This document shows, in pieces, positions 3,674-22,538 of a stretch of DNA of 43,284 nt. The translations under genes and the position numbers were made by a program. The notes below the pieces were generated by a model. That model saw nothing but the letters and a program-made list of their open reading frames with translations, was not told the origin of the DNA and did no database searches. The stretch is from a virus: the IMG/VR virus record IMGVR_UViG_3300045952_000116, positions 1 to 43,284 of that record; one strand, given 5' to 3'. Each line of letters opens with the position of its first letter. Position 1 is the first letter of the stretch.

Positions 3674-4729
3674 ATGTGGGTCAAACTCGACGACGCCTTT
3701 CCTGAGCATCGCAAGATCGAAGAGGCCGCGCGCGCCCTCGGCCGCTTCGGCGTCAGCCGCGCCATCGCCGTGTATGTCGAGGGCCTCTGCTACGCCGCGC
3801 GCAACCTGACCGACGGCTTCCTCTCCGCGCGCATCGTCGCCAAGCTCTACACCGACCCGGCGCCGCAGCAGGTCGCCCGCGCACTCGCCACCGTCGGCCT
3901 CTGGGAACCCGTCGAGGGCGGCTATCAGATCCACGACTACGGGCACTACAACCCCACGTCCCAGGAGGTCAAGGAGAAGCGGGAGTGGGACCGAAAACGG
4001 AAGTCCCTCTACAGCGACCCTGACCTCGTCGTCGCGATTCGCACGCGCGATCAGGACCGCTGCCGCTATTGCGGTGAGCGTGTGAACTGGACCGACCGTC
4101 GCGGCCCAGGCGGCGGGCAGTTCGATCACGTCGTGCCCAGAGGCGACAACTCGATGAGCAACGTCGTCGTCGCCTGTCGCGGCTGCAACAACCGGAAGGG
4201 AGATCGGACACCCAAGCAAGCTCGGATGGTTCTTCTCGATGAGAACCAAGTCGGACCTAGTTCTGAGAGCCCAATAGGACCTAGTTCAGAACTAGTTCCC
4301 AAGAACCAAATAGGAACTAGTTCGGAACCAGTTCCCCCTCGCGGGGGCGCGCGGCGCGATCGCGATCCCGTCCCGTCCCCAGATCCGGATCCGGATCCCA
4401 GCAGAGGTACTCCTCCCCCCAGTGTGTCTTCGTCGAACAGGCCGCCTGCGGCGGCAGACACACGGCGCGGGGCGCTCTCGATCGGCTCACATAAAGCCCA
4501 CGCGAGTTGCGGCCGGCCCTGCGTCCCGGCGTTCCTGCACGCCGAATTCCGGCAAAATCTCGGCGGCGATGAGGACGCCAACGACCGCGAGTTACGCGCG
4601 TGGTACGGGCGCGTCATGGACGAATGGCACGGGAAAACCATCCCGCTGGACGGCGTAAAGTTCTGGCGTCGGGCGTTTGAATCCTGGCAGAAAACCGAGG
4701 CAGAGGAGGCGATGTGGAAGGCCATGTAA
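3674..4729 (+). CDS. phage replication initiator with winged-helix N-terminus and embedded HNH domain
   Basis: A 351-aa protein. Residues 1-95 ('WVKLDDAFPEHRKI', 'GLWEPVEGGYQIHDY') match the N-terminal winged-helix region seen in phage replisome organisers. Residues 128-180 form an HNH module: Cys130-x2-Cys133, Asp151-His152, Asn163, Cys168-x2-Cys171. Residues 188-250 are a low-complexity linker coded by repeated DNA (see 4246-4334). Residues 275-345 ('CGRPCVPAFLHAEF', 'ELRAWY') resemble the C-terminal domain of such initiators. The likely role is origin recognition and helicase recruitment; the HNH domain could nick the origin or be an inserted homing domain. The next gene starts 16 nt before this stop. 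Confidence 0.7.
   Translation: MWVKLDDAFPEHRKIEEAARALGRFGVSRAIAVYVEGLCYAARNLTDGFLSARIVAKLYTDPAPQQVARALATVGLWEPVEGGYQIHDYGHYNPTSQEVKEKREWDRKRKSLYSDPDLVVAIRTRDQDRCRYCGERVNWTDRRGPGGGQFDHVVPRGDNSMSNVVVACRGCNNRKGDRTPKQARMVLLDENQVGPSSESPIGPSSELVPKNQIGTSSEPVPPRGGARRDRDPVPSPDPDPDPSRGTPPPSVSSSNRPPAAADTRRGALSIGSHKAHASCGRPCVPAFLHAEFRQNLGGDEDANDRELRAWYGRVMDEWHGKTIPLDGVKFWRRAFESWQKTEAEEAMWKAM
4246..4334. repeat. iteron-like repeats inside the replication gene, candidate origin
   Basis: Three direct copies of CCAAnTnGGAnCTAGTTC at 4246-4263, 4271-4287 and 4306-4323, together with perfect palindromes GAACTAGTTC at 4289-4298 and 4314-4323 and a near copy GAACCAGTTC at 4325-4334. The block is A/T-richer than its surroundings and lies in the linker-coding part of the initiator gene. 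Phage origins are often nested in their initiator gene (lambda O is the model). Directly downstream, GATCCG is repeated three times (4382-4398). Confidence 0.6.
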
Positions 4730-5223
4730 TCGCCGCCGCGCCCCCCCTGCCGGAGTGGTTCAAGACCACCCTCCGCGAATTTTTCCTGTGCTGGCGGCAG
4801 ACCGTCACGGTCGAGATGGGCCGCGCGTACTGGGCCACCCTGAGCGACTGCGACCCGCACGACGTCGCGGCCGCCGCCCTGGATCTCAGGCGCGGTGCGG
4901 GCGGCGAGTGGCCTCCGAGCGCGAGCACCTGGCACCAGGTTGCGGACCAGATCGGGCGCGATCGTCGGCTGCGCGAGACCATCCAGCTGGGACGAGAACA
5001 GCACTGGCGCGCAGAGTGTCAGGACTGCGACGACACCGGCTGGCAGAGCCTGGAATGCACCGCCACGGCCCGCTGTGGTCGACCCCGCTGTGACCAGGCC
5101 GAGGAAGCCTTCACGCATGGCTACGCGGCCGTGTGCCCCTGCCGTCCGACCAACAGCACGTATCAGCGTTCGCGTGACCGTGAGCGCACCAGCGCGCGAC
5201 GCGAGAGGAGCCGCACCGCATGA
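4714..5223 (+). CDS. cysteine-rich replication-associated protein, possible helicase loader
   Basis: A 169-aa protein with a GTG start preceded by AGAGGAGG about 5 nt upstream, overlapping the initiator gene by 16 nt. The N-terminal half is helical ('LPEWFKTTLREFFLCW', 'YWATLSDCDPHDVAAAAL'). The C-terminal half is a zinc-ribbon-like module: Cys102-x2-Cys105, Cys115, Cys121, Cys126, Cys141 and Cys143, with 'DTGW' after the first pair as in small phage replication proteins I have seen. Position straight after the initiator suggests a loader or accessory role in replisome assembly. No ATPase motif is present, so it is not itself a helicase. Confidence 0.6.
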   Translation: MEGHVIAAAPPLPEWFKTTLREFFLCWRQTVTVEMGRAYWATLSDCDPHDVAAAALDLRRGAGGEWPPSASTWHQVADQIGRDRRLRETIQLGREQHWRAECQDCDDTGWQSLECTATARCGRPRCDQAEEAFTHGYAAVCPCRPTNSTYQRSRDRERTSARRERSRTA

Positions 5224-6053: not shown

Positions 6054-6652
6054 CCCGCCTGCTCGCAATCGACCCGGGACCGACCGCGTCTGCGTATGTG
6101 CTCTACGTGCACGAACGCGACCCCATGACCCGCCGCAACGTGCTCGAGCGCCCTCTCCTCGAGCACGCCAAGGAGGCGAACGAGACCGTGCTGGCCAGGA
6201 TCTACCGGGTCGCCGCAGAGAACCGCGGCGGGCGATGGGTCGACCAGGTTTGCATCGAGAAAATCGAATCGTTCGGGATGGCGGTCGGCGAAGACGTCTT
6301 TGAGACCGTCTTCTGGTCGGGCCGCTTCGCCGAGGCCTGGTGTTCGTACGACGCGGCCGGCGTGGCGCGTGTGCCACGCGGCGAGGTCAAGATGCACCTG
6401 TGTCGCTCGATGCGCGCGAAGGACCCCAACATCCGCGCCGCGCTGATCGATCGGTTCGGTCAGCCCGGCACCCGCAAGGCACCAGGCAGGGTCTACGGCG
6501 TCACGGGCGATGTCTGGTCCGCCCTGGCCGTCGCCGTCACCGTGGCCGAGGGCGGTCACGTCGAACGCGGGCTCAAGGTGCGACCGCCGAGACCGCCGAG
6601 GCTGCGTGAGGTCGATGCACTGGATGACCCGCGGGCGCCGTTGTTCCCATGA
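6050..6652 (+). CDS. RuvC-like Holliday junction resolvase
   Basis: A 200-aa protein with RNase H-fold nuclease features: 'LLAIDPGPTASAY' (Asp8, first strand), 'VCIEKIESFGMAVG' (Glu70/Glu73 with the following helix) and 'GDVWSALAVAV' (Asp154). This order matches RuvC-type resolvases and their phage relatives. The substrate would be four-way junctions or branched DNA made during recombination and packaging. The start at 6050 overlaps the upstream stop as ATGA and gives the catalytic Asp the expected position near the N-terminus; a longer in-frame extension lies inside the upstream gene and is not credible. Confidence 0.82.
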   Translation: MTRLLAIDPGPTASAYVLYVHERDPMTRRNVLERPLLEHAKEANETVLARIYRVAAENRGGRWVDQVCIEKIESFGMAVGEDVFETVFWSGRFAEAWCSYDAAGVARVPRGEVKMHLCRSMRAKDPNIRAALIDRFGQPGTRKAPGRVYGVTGDVWSALAVAVTVAEGGHVERGLKVRPPRPPRLREVDALDDPRAPLFP

Positions 6653-13841: not shown

Positions 13842-14500
13842 TGACCGTCGCGCAGGCTCGTCGGCGGAATGCGCAGCGTCCTCCGATGCCGGTGGTGGTC
13901 GTCCCCAGGTTGTGCCCGGGTGGCACGGTGGTCTGTCTCGCGTCAGGGCCGAGTCTGACCGAGGACGATGCTCGGTTCTGTGAGGGTCGAGCGACGGTGA
14001 TTGCCGTGAACGATGCGTATCGCTACGCCCCCTTCGCCGCCGCCTTGATGGCGAGCGACACCGAGTGGTGGCGCGTGCATCACGGCGTGCCGTCGTTCAC
14101 CGGGCTGAAGTATTGCCTCTCGCGGTCGGCCGTGGGCAAGTGGCCGGATGTGCACGTCCTGCGCAGCACGGGCGCGGCCGGGATTGAAACCGACCCCACG
14201 GGCCTGAAGACGGGCTGCAACTCCGGCGCGGCGGCGGTCAACCTGGCCGTGCACTTCGGCGCCGCGCGCATCCTGCTGCTCGGCTACGACATGGGGGTGT
14301 CGCGCGCCGGCATGCCGGAGCATTTCTTCGGGAATCATCCGCGGCCGTTGCGCGGCGGATCGCCCTACCGGCTGTTTCGCGAGCAGTTCGGCCAGATGGT
14401 CGCGCCGCTGAAGGCCGCCGGCGTGGCCGTCATCAACTGCACGCGCCGCACGGCGCTCGAGCACTTCCCCTGTCAGCCGCTCCGGGAGGCCCTGGCATGA
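13841..14500 (+). CDS. DUF115/Maf-like protein (glycan-cassette gene 1)
   Basis: A 219-aa protein. ATG 13841 shares its A with the collagen gene TGA (a TTG at 13838 is the alternative; GGGGAGG at 13822 suits either). 'VCLASGPSL' forms a nucleotide-binding-like loop, followed by 'VIAVNDAYRYAP', 'TGCNSGAAAVNLAVHFGA' and 'ILLLGYDMG'. These are the hallmarks of DUF115/MptE-like proteins, a family that includes Maf proteins acting in flagellar sialic/pseudaminic glycosylation. A similar protein is coded at 15177-15809. The likely role is sugar transfer or nucleotide-sugar handling on a virion or host glycan; the enzymatic reaction is not established here. Confidence 0.65.
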   Translation: MTVAQARRRNAQRPPMPVVVVPRLCPGGTVVCLASGPSLTEDDARFCEGRATVIAVNDAYRYAPFAAALMASDTEWWRVHHGVPSFTGLKYCLSRSAVGKWPDVHVLRSTGAAGIETDPTGLKTGCNSGAAAVNLAVHFGAARILLLGYDMGVSRAGMPEHFFGNHPRPLRGGSPYRLFREQFGQMVAPLKAAGVAVINCTRRTALEHFPCQPLREALA

Positions 14501-15180
14501 CCCAGTGGCCGACCGTCCTCAGCGAGATGGACACGCTCGACCTGGTCCTCAGCGGGCGGAGCCTGGCGCGCTACGGCGATGGCGAGCTGCATCTGTGCGA
14601 TGGGGTGCCTGCCAAGGCGCAGGAGGCCGATCCGGCGCTCCGTGGGCGCCTGAGAGGCATTCTGCGATCGTCGGGGCACTGCCTCGTCGGCCTCCCGAAT
14701 CTGCGCGCCCAGACGCCCAAGGCGGCCTTCTGGCAGCCATTCGCGCGGCATGTCGGCCTGCTCAAGGAGCGGGAGTACGCCAGCGCGTTCGTCACGCGTC
14801 CCGATTCCGCGCCCTGGATTGACACGCCGACCTATTGGGGCACGCTCGCACAGCTCTGGCTCGGGCAGGACGTGTTGCTCGTGCGCGGGGGCGCGCGGTC
14901 GTTCACCGCCGGGGACCTCTGCGGCGCGGCGCGCGTCACCGAGGTGGTCGGGCCGGCCGTCAACGCGTGGCGGTCGTATCGGGATCTGTTCACCCAGGTC
15001 ATGGCGCATCGGCCGACGCGCGCGCTGCTGTGCCTAGGTCCGACGGCGACGGTGATGGCCGTCGACCTGTGCGCCCACGGGGTGCAGGCGATCGACCTCG
15101 GGCACCTCGGCCTCTTCTGGAAGAAGCATCTGAAGGGGGAGCCGATGATCGTGACCGAGCGCGACAAGGCGGTCGCATGA
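14497..15180 (+). CDS. GT-D fold glycosyltransferase (DUF1792-like)
   Basis: A 227-aa protein overlapping its neighbours by ATGA on both sides. 'SLARYGDGELHLC' near the N-terminus contains the R-x-GD-G-E signature of the GT-D glycosyltransferase fold, in which the acidic pair handles the metal/nucleotide-sugar. 'ALLCLGPTATVMAVDL' and 'QAIDLGHLGLFW' are the later conserved strands of that fold. Known members add hexoses to serine-rich glycoproteins. It would transfer a sugar in the cytoplasm from a nucleotide donor; the acceptor is unknown. Confidence 0.75.
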   Translation: MTQWPTVLSEMDTLDLVLSGRSLARYGDGELHLCDGVPAKAQEADPALRGRLRGILRSSGHCLVGLPNLRAQTPKAAFWQPFARHVGLLKEREYASAFVTRPDSAPWIDTPTYWGTLAQLWLGQDVLLVRGGARSFTAGDLCGAARVTEVVGPAVNAWRSYRDLFTQVMAHRPTRALLCLGPTATVMAVDLCAHGVQAIDLGHLGLFWKKHLKGEPMIVTERDKAVA

Positions 15181-15809
15181 CCGTCGCCACCTGGACGCCG
15201 CCGGCGCTCTGGTCAGTCCCGCGCGTGTGGACCGGCGAGCGGTGCTTCGTGATCTGCGGCGGCGAGAGCGTGAAGGCGCAGCGCGCCGTCGTGCCGCATC
15301 TCAACGGCCGCGTGATTGCGGTGAAGCACGGCGTGTTGCTTCGTCCCGATGCGGACGTGCTGTTCTTCGCCGGCGAACGACCGGCCGACGTGGCGCCGCC
15401 GCTCCTGCGGGCATTTCGCGGGGACCACATCGTGGTGCGGGGCCGCGGGCACGAGGTATTTCCGCCGCACGCGAAACGCGTCTGGCGCACCCTCGAGCAC
15501 ACCGCCTGGAGCACCAATCCGACGATGGTGGCGGGCTACGACGCCGGCACGAGCGCGATCAACCTGGCCATCCTGTTCGGGTGCACCGAGATCGTCGTGC
15601 TCGGCTACGACATGGTCGGCGGGCGCTGGTTTAACGGGGAATGGCCGCACTACCTGCCGAATCCGCCCGAGTCGGATTTTCAGCGGCACCTGTCGGTCCT
15701 GCCGTCGCTGGCCGAGGACGCCAAGGCGAAGGGTGTCCGCATCGTGAACGTGTCGCCGATCTCGCGCGTGCCGGGCTTCGAGCGCCAGCCGCTGGAGGCG
15801 TTCGTCTGA
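15177..15809 (+). CDS. DUF115/Maf-like protein (glycan-cassette gene 3)
   Basis: A 210-aa paralogue of the 13841-14500 product. It has 'CFVICGGESV' in place of the 'GPSL' loop, 'DADVLFFAGERPAD', 'GYDAGTSAINLAILFGCTEIVVLGYDMVGG' split over two strands, and a C-terminal 'GVRIVNVSPIS' strand. It is coupled by ATGA to the GT-D gene and by TGATG to the methyltransferase. Two diverged copies in one cassette suggest distinct sugar substrates or a heteromeric enzyme; this is inference. Confidence 0.6.
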   Translation: MTVATWTPPALWSVPRVWTGERCFVICGGESVKAQRAVVPHLNGRVIAVKHGVLLRPDADVLFFAGERPADVAPPLLRAFRGDHIVVRGRGHEVFPPHAKRVWRTLEHTAWSTNPTMVAGYDAGTSAINLAILFGCTEIVVLGYDMVGGRWFNGEWPHYLPNPPESDFQRHLSVLPSLAEDAKAKGVRIVNVSPISRVPGFERQPLEAFV

Positions 15810-16366
15810 TGGTGGCTCTGGATGATCTGATTTCGCCCGGCTACCTCAAGATGCAGCGCCTCCTGCACGACGCGCCGCGTGGGTACGGCGGGCGCGGTGA
15901 TAAGTGGGCCGGCATCGTGCTGCAGATTGCGATGGCCTATCACGCGCGCAGCATCCTGGATTACGGCAGCGGCGAAGGCAGTCTGGCGAAGGCGCTCCGG
16001 GCGTCGCCGTATCTGGGCGACATCCAGATCGCGGAATACGACCCGGCCATGCCGGGCGTGGACCAGCTGCCCGCGCCGGCGGACTTCGTGAACGTGACCG
16101 ACGTGCTCGAGCACATCGAGAAGGACCGACTGGCGGCCGTGCTCGAGCACATCAGAAGTCTGGCGCACAAGGTCGTCTTCGCGGTCATCTCCACGAAGAA
16201 GACGAACAAGGTGCTGGCCGATGGGCGCAACGCGCATCTCATCATCAAGCCGGATGCCTGGTGGAAGCAGCGACTCCGGCAGGCCGGATTCGACGTGCAC
16301 CCGCCGCCCTCGGTGGTGCGGCAGATCCCGGAGCGGGAATGGTCCGTCATCCTGACCCGTCACTGA
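15809..16366 (+). CDS. class I SAM-dependent methyltransferase (cassette gene 4)
   Basis: A 185-aa protein. 'ILDYGSGEGSLAKAL' (Asp51-Tyr-Gly-Ser-Gly-Glu-Gly) is the SAM-binding motif I, 'IAEYDPA' carries the acidic residue after strand 2, and 'DVLEHIE' (from Asp98) is motif IV/post-motif as in small-molecule and glycan methyltransferases. There is no DNA-methyltransferase (N/D)PP(Y/W) motif. Within a sugar-transfer cassette it most likely O-methylates a sugar. The downstream gene starts 28 nt before its stop. Confidence 0.75.
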   Translation: MVALDDLISPGYLKMQRLLHDAPRGYGGRGDKWAGIVLQIAMAYHARSILDYGSGEGSLAKALRASPYLGDIQIAEYDPAMPGVDQLPAPADFVNVTDVLEHIEKDRLAAVLEHIRSLAHKVVFAVISTKKTNKVLADGRNAHLIIKPDAWWKQRLRQAGFDVHPPPSVVRQIPEREWSVILTRH

Positions 16367-17025
16367 CCGTCGCGTGCGTGTGGGTGCAGGGCGAGTATCC
16401 CTACACGGCGGAGTACGTGCGCCGGCTGCATGGGATGGTCACGCGCTGGGCGGATCCGCCGGTCCGCTTCGTCTGCCTGACCGACCGGCCGTGGCTCCTC
16501 GCGTCGCCCATCGAGGCGGTGCCGGTCACCAAACTCGCCGGGTTCGCGCCGTGGACGAAGCTCGAGCTGTTCAATCCGGCTCGGGCGTGGTCCGGGCGCG
16601 TGCTGTCCCTCGACCTGGACGTGCTCCTCGTGGCCCCGCTGCGGACGCTGCTGGACGCGGCCGCCCCGTTCGTCATCACGGCCGATCCGCCGGCACAGGC
16701 GCGCGCCAGGGCGCGTGACGCGTTCGGCCGTGCCATCGTGCGGCGCGTCAATAGCTCCGTCATGGCGTGGGACGGCGGCACGCAGACCGACCTGTACACG
16801 GACTGGACGCCGGCCGTGGCGTCGCGGCTCTCCGGGGACCAGGACTGGATCGGCGAGCGGCGGCCCGAGGCCGCGACCTGGCCGCGGGCGTGGTTCCCGC
16901 GGCTCAGCGAACTGGGCGGCGCCGCGCCGGCCGACCCCGCGAAGGTCGTGCTCGTGAAGGTGCCGAAGAACCATCTGGCGGTCGCGCAGCATCCGTGGAT
17001 GGCGCCGCTGTGGGGGGCCGCATGA
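16339..17025 (+). CDS. GT-A-type glycosyltransferase with DxD motif (cassette gene 5)
   Basis: A 228-aa protein from ATG 16339, overlapping the methyltransferase by 28 nt; no later start keeps the first β-strand 'LTVACVWVQGEY'. 'RFVCLTDRPWL' and 'VLSLDLDVLLV' (Asp92-x-Asp94) give the GT-A nucleotide-binding and metal site seen in GT8-like enzymes. 'NSSVMAWDGG' and 'SGDQDWIGER' are the later acceptor-side motifs. It resembles the product of 18379-19092 in order of motifs. The expected reaction is sugar transfer from UDP- or GDP-sugar. Confidence 0.72.
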   Translation: MVRHPDPSLTVACVWVQGEYPYTAEYVRRLHGMVTRWADPPVRFVCLTDRPWLLASPIEAVPVTKLAGFAPWTKLELFNPARAWSGRVLSLDLDVLLVAPLRTLLDAAAPFVITADPPAQARARARDAFGRAIVRRVNSSVMAWDGGTQTDLYTDWTPAVASRLSGDQDWIGERRPEAATWPRAWFPRLSELGGAAPADPAKVVLVKVPKNHLAVAQHPWMAPLWGAA

Positions 17026-17624
17026 CGACGGCCCAGCAGATCGCGGCGCGGTATCGCGTGGAGCTCGGCGGCCCGCTGCCGATTCGCCTGCCGGCCGCGC
17101 GCGCCGAGCTGCCGGCGCTCTGCCGCGCGCTCGGGGTGCAGACGGGGGCCGAGGTCGGCGTCTGGAAGGGCGCCTACTCGGAATTGTTCTGCCGGGCAGG
17201 CGTGACGTGGACGGCGATCGACCCGTGGGCGCCGTATGCGGCCTACCGGGAAAAGAAGAACGATCATGTGCTGACCGAGATGGCGTACGCCGAAGCGCGG
17301 CGTCGGCTCGCGCCCTACGACTGCACGCTGCTCCGGATGGATTCGCGTGCGGCCGCCGCGCGCGTGCCGGACGGATCGCTCGGGGTCTGCTACATCGACG
17401 GCAATCACGAGGCGCCGTTCGTGCGGGAGGACCTCGAGCTGTGGACCGCGAAGGTGAAGCCGGGCGGCCTCCTGGCCGGGCACGACTATCGCGTGCCACC
17501 GGCATCCAAGCCGTTTATCCAGGTGAAGCAGGCGGTCGATGCATTTGTCGCCGAACGTGGGATCGCGCCGTGGTTTCTCCTGACGCGCGACGCAACGCCG
17601 TCGTTCCTGTGGGTCGTGTCATGA
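17022..17624 (+). CDS. class I SAM-dependent methyltransferase, TylF/MT24-like (cassette gene 6)
   Basis: A 200-aa protein. 'GAEVGVWKGAYSELF' (Glu44 to Gly50) is motif I in the E-x-G-x-x-x-G form used by Methyltransf_24/TylF-type O-methyltransferases. 'VCYIDGNHEAPFVREDLELW' and 'VKPGGLLAGHDY' are the classic metal-site and motif VI segments of that family, which often methylates sugars. It is ATGA-coupled at both ends. It supports a cassette that makes methylated glycans. Confidence 0.75.
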   Translation: MTTAQQIAARYRVELGGPLPIRLPAARAELPALCRALGVQTGAEVGVWKGAYSELFCRAGVTWTAIDPWAPYAAYREKKNDHVLTEMAYAEARRRLAPYDCTLLRMDSRAAAARVPDGSLGVCYIDGNHEAPFVREDLELWTAKVKPGGLLAGHDYRVPPASKPFIQVKQAVDAFVAERGIAPWFLLTRDATPSFLWVVS

Positions 17625-18382
17625 CGTGGGCGACGGGCGTGCCGCTCGTGCGCGTGCGGACGGCGGACCAGCCGAAGCCGGTGACGGTCGTGCTGCCCTA
17701 CTACGAGAACGCCGATTTTCTGGCGCGGCAGATTGCCGGCTGGGGCCAGTATCCCGCCGCGCTGCGCGCGCACCTGTCGGCGGTGGTCGTCGATGACGGC
17801 TCGCCGGTGCCGGCGCAGCTGCCGGAGGTCCGGCCGTTTCCGATCCGGCTCTTTCGGATCGGGGTGGACGTGCGCTGGAACTGGCTCGCGGCGCGCAACA
17901 TCGGCGCGCATCACGCCGCCGACGGGTGGGTGGTGCTGACCGACATGGACCACGTGCTGCCGGTCGAGACGGCCGCGCGCCTGGTGCATGGCGCGCACGA
18001 TCCGGCGGTGGCGTATGTGTTCTCGCGACGGGAATCGACGGGCGCGGCGATTCATCCGCACTCGGCCAGCTACTTCCTGACGCGGGCGCTCTTCTGGCAG
18101 ATCGGCGGGTATGACGAGCGGTTGTCCGGGTTCTACGGCACCGATGGCTACTTCCGGCGTCGCGTGGCGGCGATGGCGCCGCTGCGACTGCTCACCGATG
18201 TGCTCGTGCGCCACGAGTTCGATGGCGACTCCTCGACGCAGCGGTACGCGCGCAAGCAACCGGCGGATGCGGCGCTGCATGCGTTGGTGGCTGGCCTGCC
18301 GAAGGGATCGCGGCCGACGACGTTGTCATTTCCGTATCACGAAGTTATTTCATTGAATTGTCCACACGAGGTGACGGCATGA
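17621..18382 (+). CDS. family 2 glycosyltransferase (cassette gene 7)
   Basis: A 253-aa protein. 'VTVVLPYYENADFL', 'AVVVDDGSP' (residues 55-62), 'NWLAARNIGAHHA' and 'VVLTDMDHVLP' (Asp108-x-Asp110) form the GT2 GT-A fold. 'LFWQIGGYDERLSGFYGTDG' is the acceptor-binding motif with the catalytic acidic residue. No transmembrane helix is present, so it acts in the cytoplasm. The last 60 nt are noticeably A/T-richer than the rest. Confidence 0.82.
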   Translation: MTWATGVPLVRVRTADQPKPVTVVLPYYENADFLARQIAGWGQYPAALRAHLSAVVVDDGSPVPAQLPEVRPFPIRLFRIGVDVRWNWLAARNIGAHHAADGWVVLTDMDHVLPVETAARLVHGAHDPAVAYVFSRRESTGAAIHPHSASYFLTRALFWQIGGYDERLSGFYGTDGYFRRRVAAMAPLRLLTDVLVRHEFDGDSSTQRYARKQPADAALHALVAGLPKGSRPTTLSFPYHEVISLNCPHEVTA

Positions 18383-19092
18383 CGCCGTTGACCGTCGTGA
18401 CGTGGAAGTGGGCGCCCAAGCCAGGGTATCGCTCGACGTTCGGGCCGGCGACGGTGAACGTGCTGCGGCGGATGGTGGCGCGGCATTATCCGGCACCGCA
18501 TCGGTTCGTGTGCGTGACCGACGACGCGACGGGGATCGACCCTGACATCGAGATCGTGCCGGACTGGAAGGATTTCGCAGACCTGCCCGCGCCAACCGGG
18601 GCGCGCAACCCCAGCTGCTATCGGCGGTTGCGGATGTATGCGCCGGACATCGCGGCCGTGTTCGGGCCGAGGTTCGTGTCGCTCGACCTCGATCTGGTCA
18701 TCACCGCCGACCTCACGCCGGTCTTTGACCGCCCCGAGGATTTTGTCATCTGGGGAGACACCAACCCGCGCACGTTCTACAACGGGTCAATGGTGCTGAT
18801 GACGGCCGGGGCGCGGCCGCACGTGTGGACGTCGTTCGATCCGGTCACCTCGCCGCGGCAGGCGCGCGCGGTCGGGCACTTCGGCAGCGACCAGGGCTGG
18901 ATCAGCTACTGCCTCGGCCCGCACGAGGTGCGCTGGACCAAGGGCGACGGCGTCTACAGCTTCCACAACCACCTCCAGCATGCGCAGCGGCTGCCGCCGG
19001 ATGCCAGGGTCGTGGTCTTCCACGGCCATCGCGACCCGTGGCAACGACAGGTGCAGCAGCGGTATCCGTGGATCGCGACACACTACCACTGA
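18379..19092 (+). CDS. GT-A-type glycosyltransferase with DxD motif (cassette gene 8)
   Basis: A 237-aa protein starting at ATG 18379, ATGA-coupled to the GT2 gene (GTG 18358 is a less likely alternative). 'LTVVTWKWAP', 'HRFVCVTDD', 'FVSLDLDLVIT' (Asp103-x-Asp105), 'FYNGSMVLM' and 'GSDQGWISYCL' follow the same order as in the 16339-17025 product, so the two are probably paralogues. The 'KPG..FH.H' type C-terminus ('VVVFHGHRDPW') is common in this class. It closes the eight-gene cassette just before the head-tail connector gene. Confidence 0.75.
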   Translation: MTPLTVVTWKWAPKPGYRSTFGPATVNVLRRMVARHYPAPHRFVCVTDDATGIDPDIEIVPDWKDFADLPAPTGARNPSCYRRLRMYAPDIAAVFGPRFVSLDLDLVITADLTPVFDRPEDFVIWGDTNPRTFYNGSMVLMTAGARPHVWTSFDPVTSPRQARAVGHFGSDQGWISYCLGPHEVRWTKGDGVYSFHNHLQHAQRLPPDARVVVFHGHRDPWQRQVQQRYPWIATHYH

Positions 19093-19098
19093 GGACCT

Positions 19099-19437
19099 AT
19101 GGCGCTCGTCACGCTGGCGCAAGCCAAGGCGCACCTCAAGTTCTTCACGGCGAGCGTCTCTCCGGCGACGGAGGAAGAGAGCGACCTGCTCCTGAAGATG
19201 GCGCAGGCCGAAGCGCTGATCCTCGACTACCTCGGCTACTCCGAAGCCTCGCCGCCGATCTGGGATGAGGACACGGTGCCGCTGGTCGTCCACACGGCGA
19301 TCCTGTATCAGCTCGGCGAGCTCTGGCGGTTCCGCGGCGATGACCCGGGTGACGAGGGCCCGAACGCCACCGACGGCTACCTGTCGCCGTGGGTGACCAA
19401 CGCGCTCCGGCGGTTCCGGCCTCCCTCTCTGGCGTAG
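19099..19437 (+). CDS. head-tail connector (HK97 gp6-like)
   Basis: A 112-aa protein. 'VTLAQAKAHLKF' at the start, 'ESDLLLKMAQAEALILDYL' and 'AILYQLGELWRFRGD' are characteristic of the phage connector family (Phage_connect_1), in which an N-terminal helix pair forms a ring below the portal. In most relatives this gene directly follows the capsid gene; here the collagen gene and glycan cassette intervene. Confidence 0.82.
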   Translation: MALVTLAQAKAHLKFFTASVSPATEEESDLLLKMAQAEALILDYLGYSEASPPIWDEDTVPLVVHTAILYQLGELWRFRGDDPGDEGPNATDGYLSPWVTNALRRFRPPSLA

Positions 19438-19445
19438 AGACGACG

Positions 19446-20027
19446 ATGGCGACCCGAGGCACCGTCGGCAAGATGTTCGAGCGGATCGTGATCGAGGAGA
19501 GCGCCCCCGATCCGATCGCCGTCGCGTCGCTGACGCGCACGCTGACGACGGCGACGGCCTCGACCGCGCCAACCGCGCACGGCTTCCAGAACGGCGACTA
19601 CGTGCAGGTGGCGGGTGCCAACGAGGCCGCCTACAACGCGGCCAAGGTCAAGGTGACGGTGCTCAGCGCGACGTCGTTCAGCTATCAGGTCTCCGGTTCC
19701 CCGAGTTCTCCGGCGACCGGCACCATCACGGTCACCTATCTGTCCGACGCGCAGGGGAATCGCAAACTGAGCTGGTCTGAGCTGGTCGCCCTGCCGGCCG
19801 AAGCGATGGCGATCAGTGCCACCGAACGCCTAGCCGCCGCGGCGATCCCCGCGCTGGCCTCCAGCACGCTCTATCGCTTCCGCACGCATCTCCGGCCCGA
19901 TGTGACCGACGACATGCGCGTGCGCTGGACGCCGCGGTATCCCGAGGGGGCGCCCGAGCAGGTCCTGGAGATCACCGGCGTGCTCCGTGAAGACAGCCGG
20001 TTCATGGTCCTGGACTGCGTGGACTAA
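19446..20027 (+). CDS. head closure / head-tail joining protein with N-terminal β insertion
   Basis: A 193-aa protein. The C-terminal half ('RFRTHLRPDVTDDMRVRW', 'EQVLEITGVLRED', 'FMVLDCVD') fits the phage head-tail adaptor/joining family, usually about 100-110 aa. Residues about 28-100 are an extra Thr/Ala/Ser-rich β-domain ('TAHGFQNGDYVQVAGAN', 'VTVLSATSFSYQVSG'), resembling small domains inserted in phage structural proteins. The extra domain would project from the neck. Confidence 0.7.
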   Translation: MATRGTVGKMFERIVIEESAPDPIAVASLTRTLTTATASTAPTAHGFQNGDYVQVAGANEAAYNAAKVKVTVLSATSFSYQVSGSPSSPATGTITVTYLSDAQGNRKLSWSELVALPAEAMAISATERLAAAAIPALASSTLYRFRTHLRPDVTDDMRVRWTPRYPEGAPEQVLEITGVLREDSRFMVLDCVD

Positions 20028-21391: not shown

Positions 21392-21841
21392 ATGGTGTTC
21401 GCCTCGCGGGTCCAGAAGACGGTGGAGATCCCGCACGATCCGCCGCACACGGCGCTGCTGCAGAAACTGCCGCGGCGCCATCTCATCACGGCCAGCAAGC
21501 AGCAGACGGCCACGCTGATGTCGGACATCCGCGCGCAGTTCGGCGAGCGCTGGCAGCAGGAGATTGCCGGCTTCACGTCGAAGAAGTCGGACGACGCGGC
21601 GGCGCTCACGAAGGCCGCCAAGGATCCGCTGCTGCAGTTCGACGTCGACACGCTCCTGCAGTACGGGCTCAAGGCGTGGACGTACGACGAACCGCTGACG
21701 CCGGACGCCCTCGCGGATCTGGACCAGGAAACGGCGGAGCATCTCGCGCGGGAAATCCTGCGGCTGACGGCCCCAAAGCTCTTCGATCTGGAGGAGGGCG
21801 ACGACCGAAAAAACGGCTCCGCGTCCTCTGGGCCTGCCTAG
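21392..21841 (+). CDS. tail assembly chaperone, short form (gpG-like)
   Basis: A 149-aa protein with an excellent ribosome binding site (AGGAGGG, 21381-21387). It is charged and largely helical ('LITASKQQTATLMSDIRAQF', 'DDAAALTKAAKDPLLQF'). It ends with 'RKNGSASSGPA', just past the slippery site at 21808-21814. In siphophages the short form binds the tape measure during assembly. Identification rests on location (tube protein, then this, then tape measure) and the frameshift site. Confidence 0.82.
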   Translation: MVFASRVQKTVEIPHDPPHTALLQKLPRRHLITASKQQTATLMSDIRAQFGERWQQEIAGFTSKKSDDAAALTKAAKDPLLQFDVDTLLQYGLKAWTYDEPLTPDALADLDQETAEHLAREILRLTAPKLFDLEEGDDRKNGSASSGPA

Positions 21842-22164
21842 AGGACCAGGCGCCGGCGCCGCTCGCGTGGATCGTCAGCCGACTTTGCGAGGAGTTTCAG
21901 ATCCCGGTGCGGGAGGCGCTCGACGCGGTGGACCCGGAGTTGGACACGTTCGACGCGGCGCTGGTGGCCGATGAGTGCGCGACGTTGATGTTCGAGGTGA
22001 TGGACTGCCGGTCGTTTGCGGCGGCGCGTCGGGCGTATCAGCAGGCCAAGCCCGAGGAACAATTCGACCTCGCGAAAGAGCATCCGATGGTGGCGCTGAT
22101 TCAGGAGATCGACCTGGAGGTCCAGATGGCCCGCAAGAAGGTCGCGAAGGCGAACCGCGCATGA
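21392..22164 (+). CDS. tail assembly chaperone, long frameshifted form (gpGT-like)
   Basis: A -1 slip at 21808-21814 joins 141 codons of the short form to a 116-residue extension in the -1 frame, which begins 'RLRVLWACLEDQAPAPLAW' and contains 'CEEFQIPVREALDAV' and 'FAAARRAYQQAKPEEQ'. The total is about 257 aa. The extension has no start codon of its own near its beginning, so frameshifting is the only plain way to make it. The T domain of such proteins binds the tail tube subunit. It ends in ATGA overlap with the next gene. Confidence 0.85.
21808..21846 (+). promoter_or_regulatory. programmed -1 frameshift signal (A AAA AAC plus stem-loop)
   Basis: A AAA AAC in the zero frame (21808-21814) is a perfect X-XXY-YYZ heptamer. 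After an 8-nt spacer, GTCCTCT (21823-21829) pairs with AGAGGAC (21840-21846) around a 10-nt loop, with the zero-frame TAG inside the stem-loop. Slippery site, spacing, hairpin and gene position all fit the conserved siphophage tail-chaperone frameshift. Confidence 0.9.
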
Positions 22165-22538
22165 CCCTGCGCGCGGACATCGACACCGGTCCGGTGCTGG
22201 CGGCACTGCGGCGGCTCGGCAGCGAAGCCCAGCCGCGGCTGCGCGAAGTGTCGCTCGCCACGGGTCGGCGCGTGGCCGACGAGGCGAGAGGGCGCGTGGC
22301 GCGGCGCACGGGCCAGACCGCTGCCGCCATCACGGTCGACGAAGACAACGGGGTGGTCAGGGTCTACGTCGCTCACGTCCCCCGGCGTTCGTCCAATGTG
22401 CCGTTGTGGCTGGAGTTCGGCACCTGGAAGATGAGGGCGCGGCCCTTCCTGCTCGTCAGTGCGCAACTCGAAGCGCCGGGCCATCTGTCCCGCGTGGCCG
22501 CGGCCCTTGACACGCTCCTCAGCGAGGTCGGTGGCTGA
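22161..22538 (+). CDS. HK97 gp10-like tail completion/joining protein
   Basis: A 125-aa protein. 'LREVSLATGRRVADEARGRV' and 'PLWLEFGTWKMRARPFLLVS' match the HK97 gp10 family signature (a tail-completion protein with a conserved 'EFGT..M.A.PF' core). Its usual place is between the head closure gene and tail terminator; here it lies after the tail chaperones. It is ATGA-coupled upstream and overlaps the tape measure start by one base. Confidence 0.8.
   Translation: MTLRADIDTGPVLAALRRLGSEAQPRLREVSLATGRRVADEARGRVARRTGQTAAAITVDEDNGVVRVYVAHVPRRSSNVPLWLEFGTWKMRARPFLLVSAQLEAPGHLSRVAAALDTLLSEVGG

Follow-up and report, generated by a model that had tools for sequence, protein, structure and literature searches.

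Based on comparative sequence analysis, we found that a gene region in the virus record IMGVR_UViG_3300045952_000116 is very probably a tail-assembly chaperone gene of the lambda G/GT type that uses programmed -1 ribosomal frameshifting. The record, analysed over its full length of 43,284 bases and hereafter called the window, belongs to an uncultivated phage, and its G+C content is about 64-71% (in 2-kb steps); a preliminary description of the same DNA had called the phage GC-rich. As in genes of the lambda G/GT type, a short open reading frame (ORF) is overlapped at its end by a second frame in -1 on the same strand, which has no usable start codon. The two frames had been described as giving forms of 149 and about 257 amino acids (aa), and the frame lengths were indeed 149 aa and, when the zero frame was followed to 21814 and the -1 frame to 22164, a predicted 257 aa. 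The features shown here are the register of the slip site, the conservation of the overlap and of coding in both frames, a stem, the gene order and a confidently predicted fold of the extension; from these we infer the slippage itself, its efficiency and the functions of the two proteins. The word 'textbook' used earlier therefore suits the signal and not a demonstrated slippage event.

The zero frame around the site reads CGA AAA AAC GGC ... GCC TAG, which places the slippery heptamer A_AAA_AAC in register, exactly where the preliminary description had put it, and the spacer of 8 nucleotides (nt) between heptamer and stem was also as described. AAAAAAC occurs only once in the window when both strands are searched, and nowhere else does the window have six A or six T in a row. 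When the whole window was shuffled, there were on average 0.36 copies on both strands, with at least one copy in 30 of 100 shuffles, so the presence of the word alone is unremarkable. What is remarkable is that it stands in register, closely precedes the stop and is conserved. Start codons in the -1 frame were found at 21676 (GTG) and from 21907 onward, and the earlier claim that the extension lacks a start thus held in substance, though not mechanically. The GTG falls within the coding region of the chaperone and is unsuited as a start for the extension; the later codons would be unsuited as well, being located downstream of the conserved N-terminus of the extension.

Three IMG/VR contigs (L003, L004 and L005) encode the same gene pair, with 59-73% identity in the short protein and 49-85% in the extension. 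The heptamer is unchanged in all three and is followed in each by a TAG 24 nt further on, and the codon that holds its first A varies among the four sequences (CGA, CTA, CAA, CGA). When the window was compared with L003 over 106 codons, the -1 frame showed 12, 3 and 36 changes at codon positions 1, 2 and 3, respectively, and this third-position excess downstream of the overlap points to coding conservation of the -1 frame. Conservation of that frame in relatives was one of the points on which the preliminary description had made its idea depend, and the idea survived. The -1 frame of L004 opens no earlier than 6396, just 12 nt before the heptamer at 6408, which leaves no room there for an upstream start of the extension. 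A rescan with a profile of the four short proteins returned only the three known contigs.

A profile built from the four extensions identified 48 loci in IMG/VR, and 37 were kept after 11 near-copies had been dropped, a removal that was borne out by clustering at 95% identity. Extension loci were collected by the patterns W..SR.CE and LMFE, so the conservation of these motifs is partly due to selection; the slip site lies outside both. Two loci (L039 and L056) were left out of the heptamer count and of the comparisons of folding and Shine-Dalgarno-like words, and L076 was left out of the short-protein alignment. In all 37 non-redundant loci the extension lies in another frame and overlaps the end of the upstream ORF, with a frame of -1 in 35 of them and of +1 (or -2) in L039 and L056. 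The extension might instead be a separate gene whose translation begins after the TAG, either through reinitiation or at an internal start, as the tight gene packing common in phages and the in-frame starts at 21907 and later and at 21676 would permit. However, the conserved part of the extension starts at the slip site and so before 21907, the -1 frame of L004 has no start codon on the stretch from its upstream stop to this conserved part, and every non-redundant locus keeps the overlap in another frame, which makes a separate gene extremely unlikely.

The slip site itself was conserved in register within the overlap, as in the lambda G/GT type. Among the 36 sequences in the -1 arrangement (the window and 35 loci), 28 have an in-register X_XXY_YYZ heptamer at most 12 codons from the stop, where about 1.4 would be expected from the frequency in the remainder of these ORFs (15 in 4633 codons). 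The word was AAAAAAC in 21, GGGAAAC in six (two with a second heptamer) and AAAAAAA in one; after clustering at 70% identity, 14 of the 26 groups had AAAAAAC. Slippage of the RNA polymerase on the six A bases, giving some mRNAs with an extra or missing base that code for the long form, was considered as well. It would fit the fact that the site holds the window's only such run, and L004 has seven A and L054 an even longer run. However, the overlap is shared by six non-redundant relatives with G_GGA_AAC (L062, L070, L075, L078, L081 and L082) and by six with GGG GAA at the conserved -1 junction (L044, L055, L061, L068, L071 and L074), none of which has a run of six A. A heptamer in register with a structure downstream is moreover what ribosomal slippage needs, and we regard polymerase slippage as very unlikely. 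Least likely, with almost no probability, is that the frame break reflects an error of assembly or the decay of a gene: homopolymers are error-prone, but the same break is found at the same place in the three close relatives and across the wide family from many metagenomes, and both frames show coding conservation, which argues against decay.

The junctions of the two loci with a +1 (or -2) arrangement lie at about 4959-5035 in L039 and about 4965-5011 in L056. Both contain GAG GGG CGA, which would allow a +1 slip from GGG to GGC before CGA. Further members of this branch were sought, and only the lineages of L039 and L056 were found. Judged by these sequences, the slip word and perhaps the slip direction would change among homologous genes, the +1 case comprising two lineages.

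Folding of the window gave a stem of 10 base pairs (bp), including one G-U pair, in place of the 7 bp proposed earlier, and further outer pairs are possible. The zero-frame stop had been placed inside the loop or stem; it lies in the 3' arm of the stem and not in the loop. The stem re-forms in each of the three close relatives, and two of its pairs change on both sides among the four sequences. Of the alignment cells in the stem 95% were paired, in comparison to 32-58% when the partner was slid by 1-3 columns. The 50 nt after the site had a mean folding z of -1.50 in 28 loci, compared to -0.36 in 84 coding windows of the same genes (Mann-Whitney p 4.5e-6, the loci not being independent). Additionally, a Shine-Dalgarno-like word was present at most 20 nt upstream of the site in 22 of the 28 loci, compared to 23% (750/3264) of other codon positions, an enrichment that the coding of a Glu-rich linker could also cause.

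The tail-chaperone reading of the preliminary description was supported by the conserved overlap in relatives, and the gene order and, weakly, the predicted structure fit it. The model of the extension was all-helical. For the short protein, among 45 chains aligned, only the HK97 chaperone 2ob9 (Z 5.3, 12% identity) and YqbN 3klu (Z 5.8, 7% identity) reached a Z of at least 5. Ten of the 50 matches listed in BFVD carried the name tail assembly chaperone, the best of these with E 1.8e-2, and the best match listed was an uncharacterised phage protein (E 1.3e-3). The order of genes in the window is tail tube, chaperone, extension, Neck1-like gene and tape measure (Table 1), so that the pair lies between the major tail protein and the tape measure, with one small gene intervening before the latter.

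Table 1. Coordinates of the proposed chaperone region and its neighbouring tail genes in the window (pLDDT, predicted local distance difference test).
Feature	Position	Strand	Basis
Slippery heptamer A_AAA_AAC	21808..21814	+	In register with short ORF; conserved in relatives
Predicted short tail-assembly chaperone ORF, 149 aa, ATG 21392 to TAG	21392..21841	+	AlphaFold2 model, pLDDT 73.4; best PDB matches 2ob9, 3klu
Zero-frame stop TAG	21839..21841	+	Within 3' arm of stem
Extension in the -1 frame, with 116 codons and a TGA after the slip; predicted helical domain	21814..22164	+	Model, pLDDT 93.5
10-bp stem-loop, 21823-21832 with 21837-21846, loop 21833-21836	21823..21846	+	Folding, comparison
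AGGAGG, Shine-Dalgarno-like, ending 10 nt before heptamer	21792..21797	+	Possible stimulator
Putative tail-tube (major tail) protein, 144 aa	20886..21320	+	Homology to same-position genes of relatives
Putative tail completion / Neck1-like gene, whose ATG overlaps the extension's TGA	22161..22538	+	phrog_5
Putative tape measure protein, 1523 aa	22538..27109	+	phrog_8125, E 3.5e-16, and others

The lambda heptamer is G_GGA_AAG, whereas the present site has A_AAA_AAC with a strong 10-bp stem right after it; unlike in lambda, a small Neck1-like gene lies between the extension and the tape measure, and no named sequence family was matched. The two systems share a pair of overlapping frames ahead of the tape measure gene, a -1 shift late in the first frame and a short and an extended chaperone, the shift and the two chaperones being predicted here. 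According to PMC5009743, gpGT of lambda arises when a minority of the ribosomes shift by -1 close to the end of G; of its parts, G binds to the tape measure and T to the tube protein, and neither protein remains in the finished tail. By the mechanism that we propose, most ribosomes would read to the TAG at 21839 and produce the 149-aa short chaperone. The stem-loop, and perhaps the internal Shine-Dalgarno-like stretch, would pause a minority of ribosomes, which would move back by one base on A_AAA_AAC, pass the stop out of frame and produce the 257-aa form, whose C-terminal domain is predicted to be helical. If the parts have the same roles as in lambda, the N-terminal portion common to both forms would attach to the tape measure, the tail-tube protein would be brought in by the extension, and the virion would retain neither form. 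As the anatomy matches that of lambda G/GT, the short form would be expected in excess together with the 257-aa form. In passages of PMC3711429, frameshifting of 6% and 7% is given for two genes of an HK97-like chaperone cluster in published tests, and the prediction of tail-chaperone frameshifts is presented as routine in part of PMC10274946.

Several results weigh against a frameshifted chaperone. A standard heptamer near the stop was missing in eight of the 36 sequences; these are the six with GGG GAA and two with words further upstream, AAAAAAT in L076 and CCCTTTG in L080. For the window alone the folding z was modest at -1.0 to -2.1 (-1.94 and -2.11 for the site, -1.01 for a 50-nt stretch). 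The covariation score together with the percentage paired was reached in 45 of 500 shuffles, and 211 of 500 had at least as many pairs in which both partners change; with four sequences and 45/500 shuffles reaching the score, the covariation of the stem is suggestive only. In E. coli, A_AAA_AAC is less shift-prone than A_AAA_AAG according to PMC5009743. The structural matches of the short protein were weak (Foldseek against PDB, E 2.7 and 8.8; Z 5.3 and 5.8), too weak to prove homology to the HK97 and YqbN chaperones. Similarly, the extension had no notable structural match (best PDB Z 3.6; best BFVD E 1.1), and the window proteins matched no chaperone family in Pfam or PHROG (NCBIfam was not searched). 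A chaperone match in Pfam or PHROG was also not found in 38 extension members and in ten of the 36 aligned short-protein relatives.

In a tblastn search of annotated phages with P0003, P0001 and proteins of four relatives, five of the six queries were without a match, and the sixth gave a weak match to Geobacillus phage GBK1. No relative was found when genome contigs were scanned with the short-protein profile, and a sequence search of solved structures with the profiles of the short protein and the extension gave matches at chance level only. Missing matches of this kind are no proof that the folds are new to science. In GBK1 (MN727882), gp13 and gp14 resemble the present pair in having an extension-like ORF in -1, an A_AAA_AAG heptamer and a position directly before a long ORF; the observation concerns 2648-3237 of L084 (MN727882 8504-14701). 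The GBK1 extension was matched by hhalign at 96.5% over 45 columns and by tblastn only at E 0.04. The short protein gave no match to GBK1 (8.5%), and gp13 and gp14 are annotated as two hypothetical proteins; judged by these likenesses, they may be one frameshifted chaperone and a distant relative of the present family.

The identification of the neighbouring genes was based on comparison with relatives and PHROG. The 144-aa protein matched the same-position gene in all 12 relatives compared (phmmer E 5.8e-17 to 7.4e-3), and no direct Pfam or PHROG match was found for the window protein itself. When such genes of relatives were compared with the PHROG 'major tail protein' phrog_10528, L042 gave E 2.4e-5, L061 gave 0.0028 and L046 had no match. 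The match to phrog_5 (E 7.3e-8) was obtained with the ORF 21975-22538, which contains the Neck1-like gene, and the start of this gene is conserved in relatives. Scanning with the Neck1-like profile gave 23 loci, including L013 on the contig of a close relative, and scanning with the tape-measure profile gave seven, the newly found ones being L007, L008, L010 and L012. A tape measure was present downstream in six of the six relatives scanned. In L005, the place after the Neck1-like gene, which the tape measure takes in the close relatives, is occupied by a 209-aa ORF (4369-4998), possibly an inserted gene. Connector-like genes lie upstream at 19099-20027 in the window. Methyltransferase-like and glycosyltransferase-like ORFs were seen at 14497-19092, inside the structural module, with the portal/fibre region on one side and the head-tail connector genes on the other. 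Additionally, the N-terminal part of a 652-aa ORF at 9492-11450 matches the PHROG head maturation protease and the rest matches the major head protein, so that protease and capsid protein look fused.

The mechanism and its genomic place have long been known, and frameshifting is a well-known trick of tailed phages. For the haloarchaeal tailed viruses HCTV-1, HCTV-2 and HCTV-5, the first two of the slip words given for them occur in the present family too. The protein family seems to be unlisted in Pfam and PHROGs; its absence from print is not claimed, the literature searches not having been aimed at the family by name. We give about even chances to the idea that in this family the fusion is the conserved trait and the slip mechanism an exchangeable one. 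Two orphan ORFs, here and in dozens of related uncultivated phages, can be annotated as one frameshifted tail-assembly chaperone, and the varied slip sites on one homologous protein offer a natural series in which to ask what recoding signals can substitute for one another.
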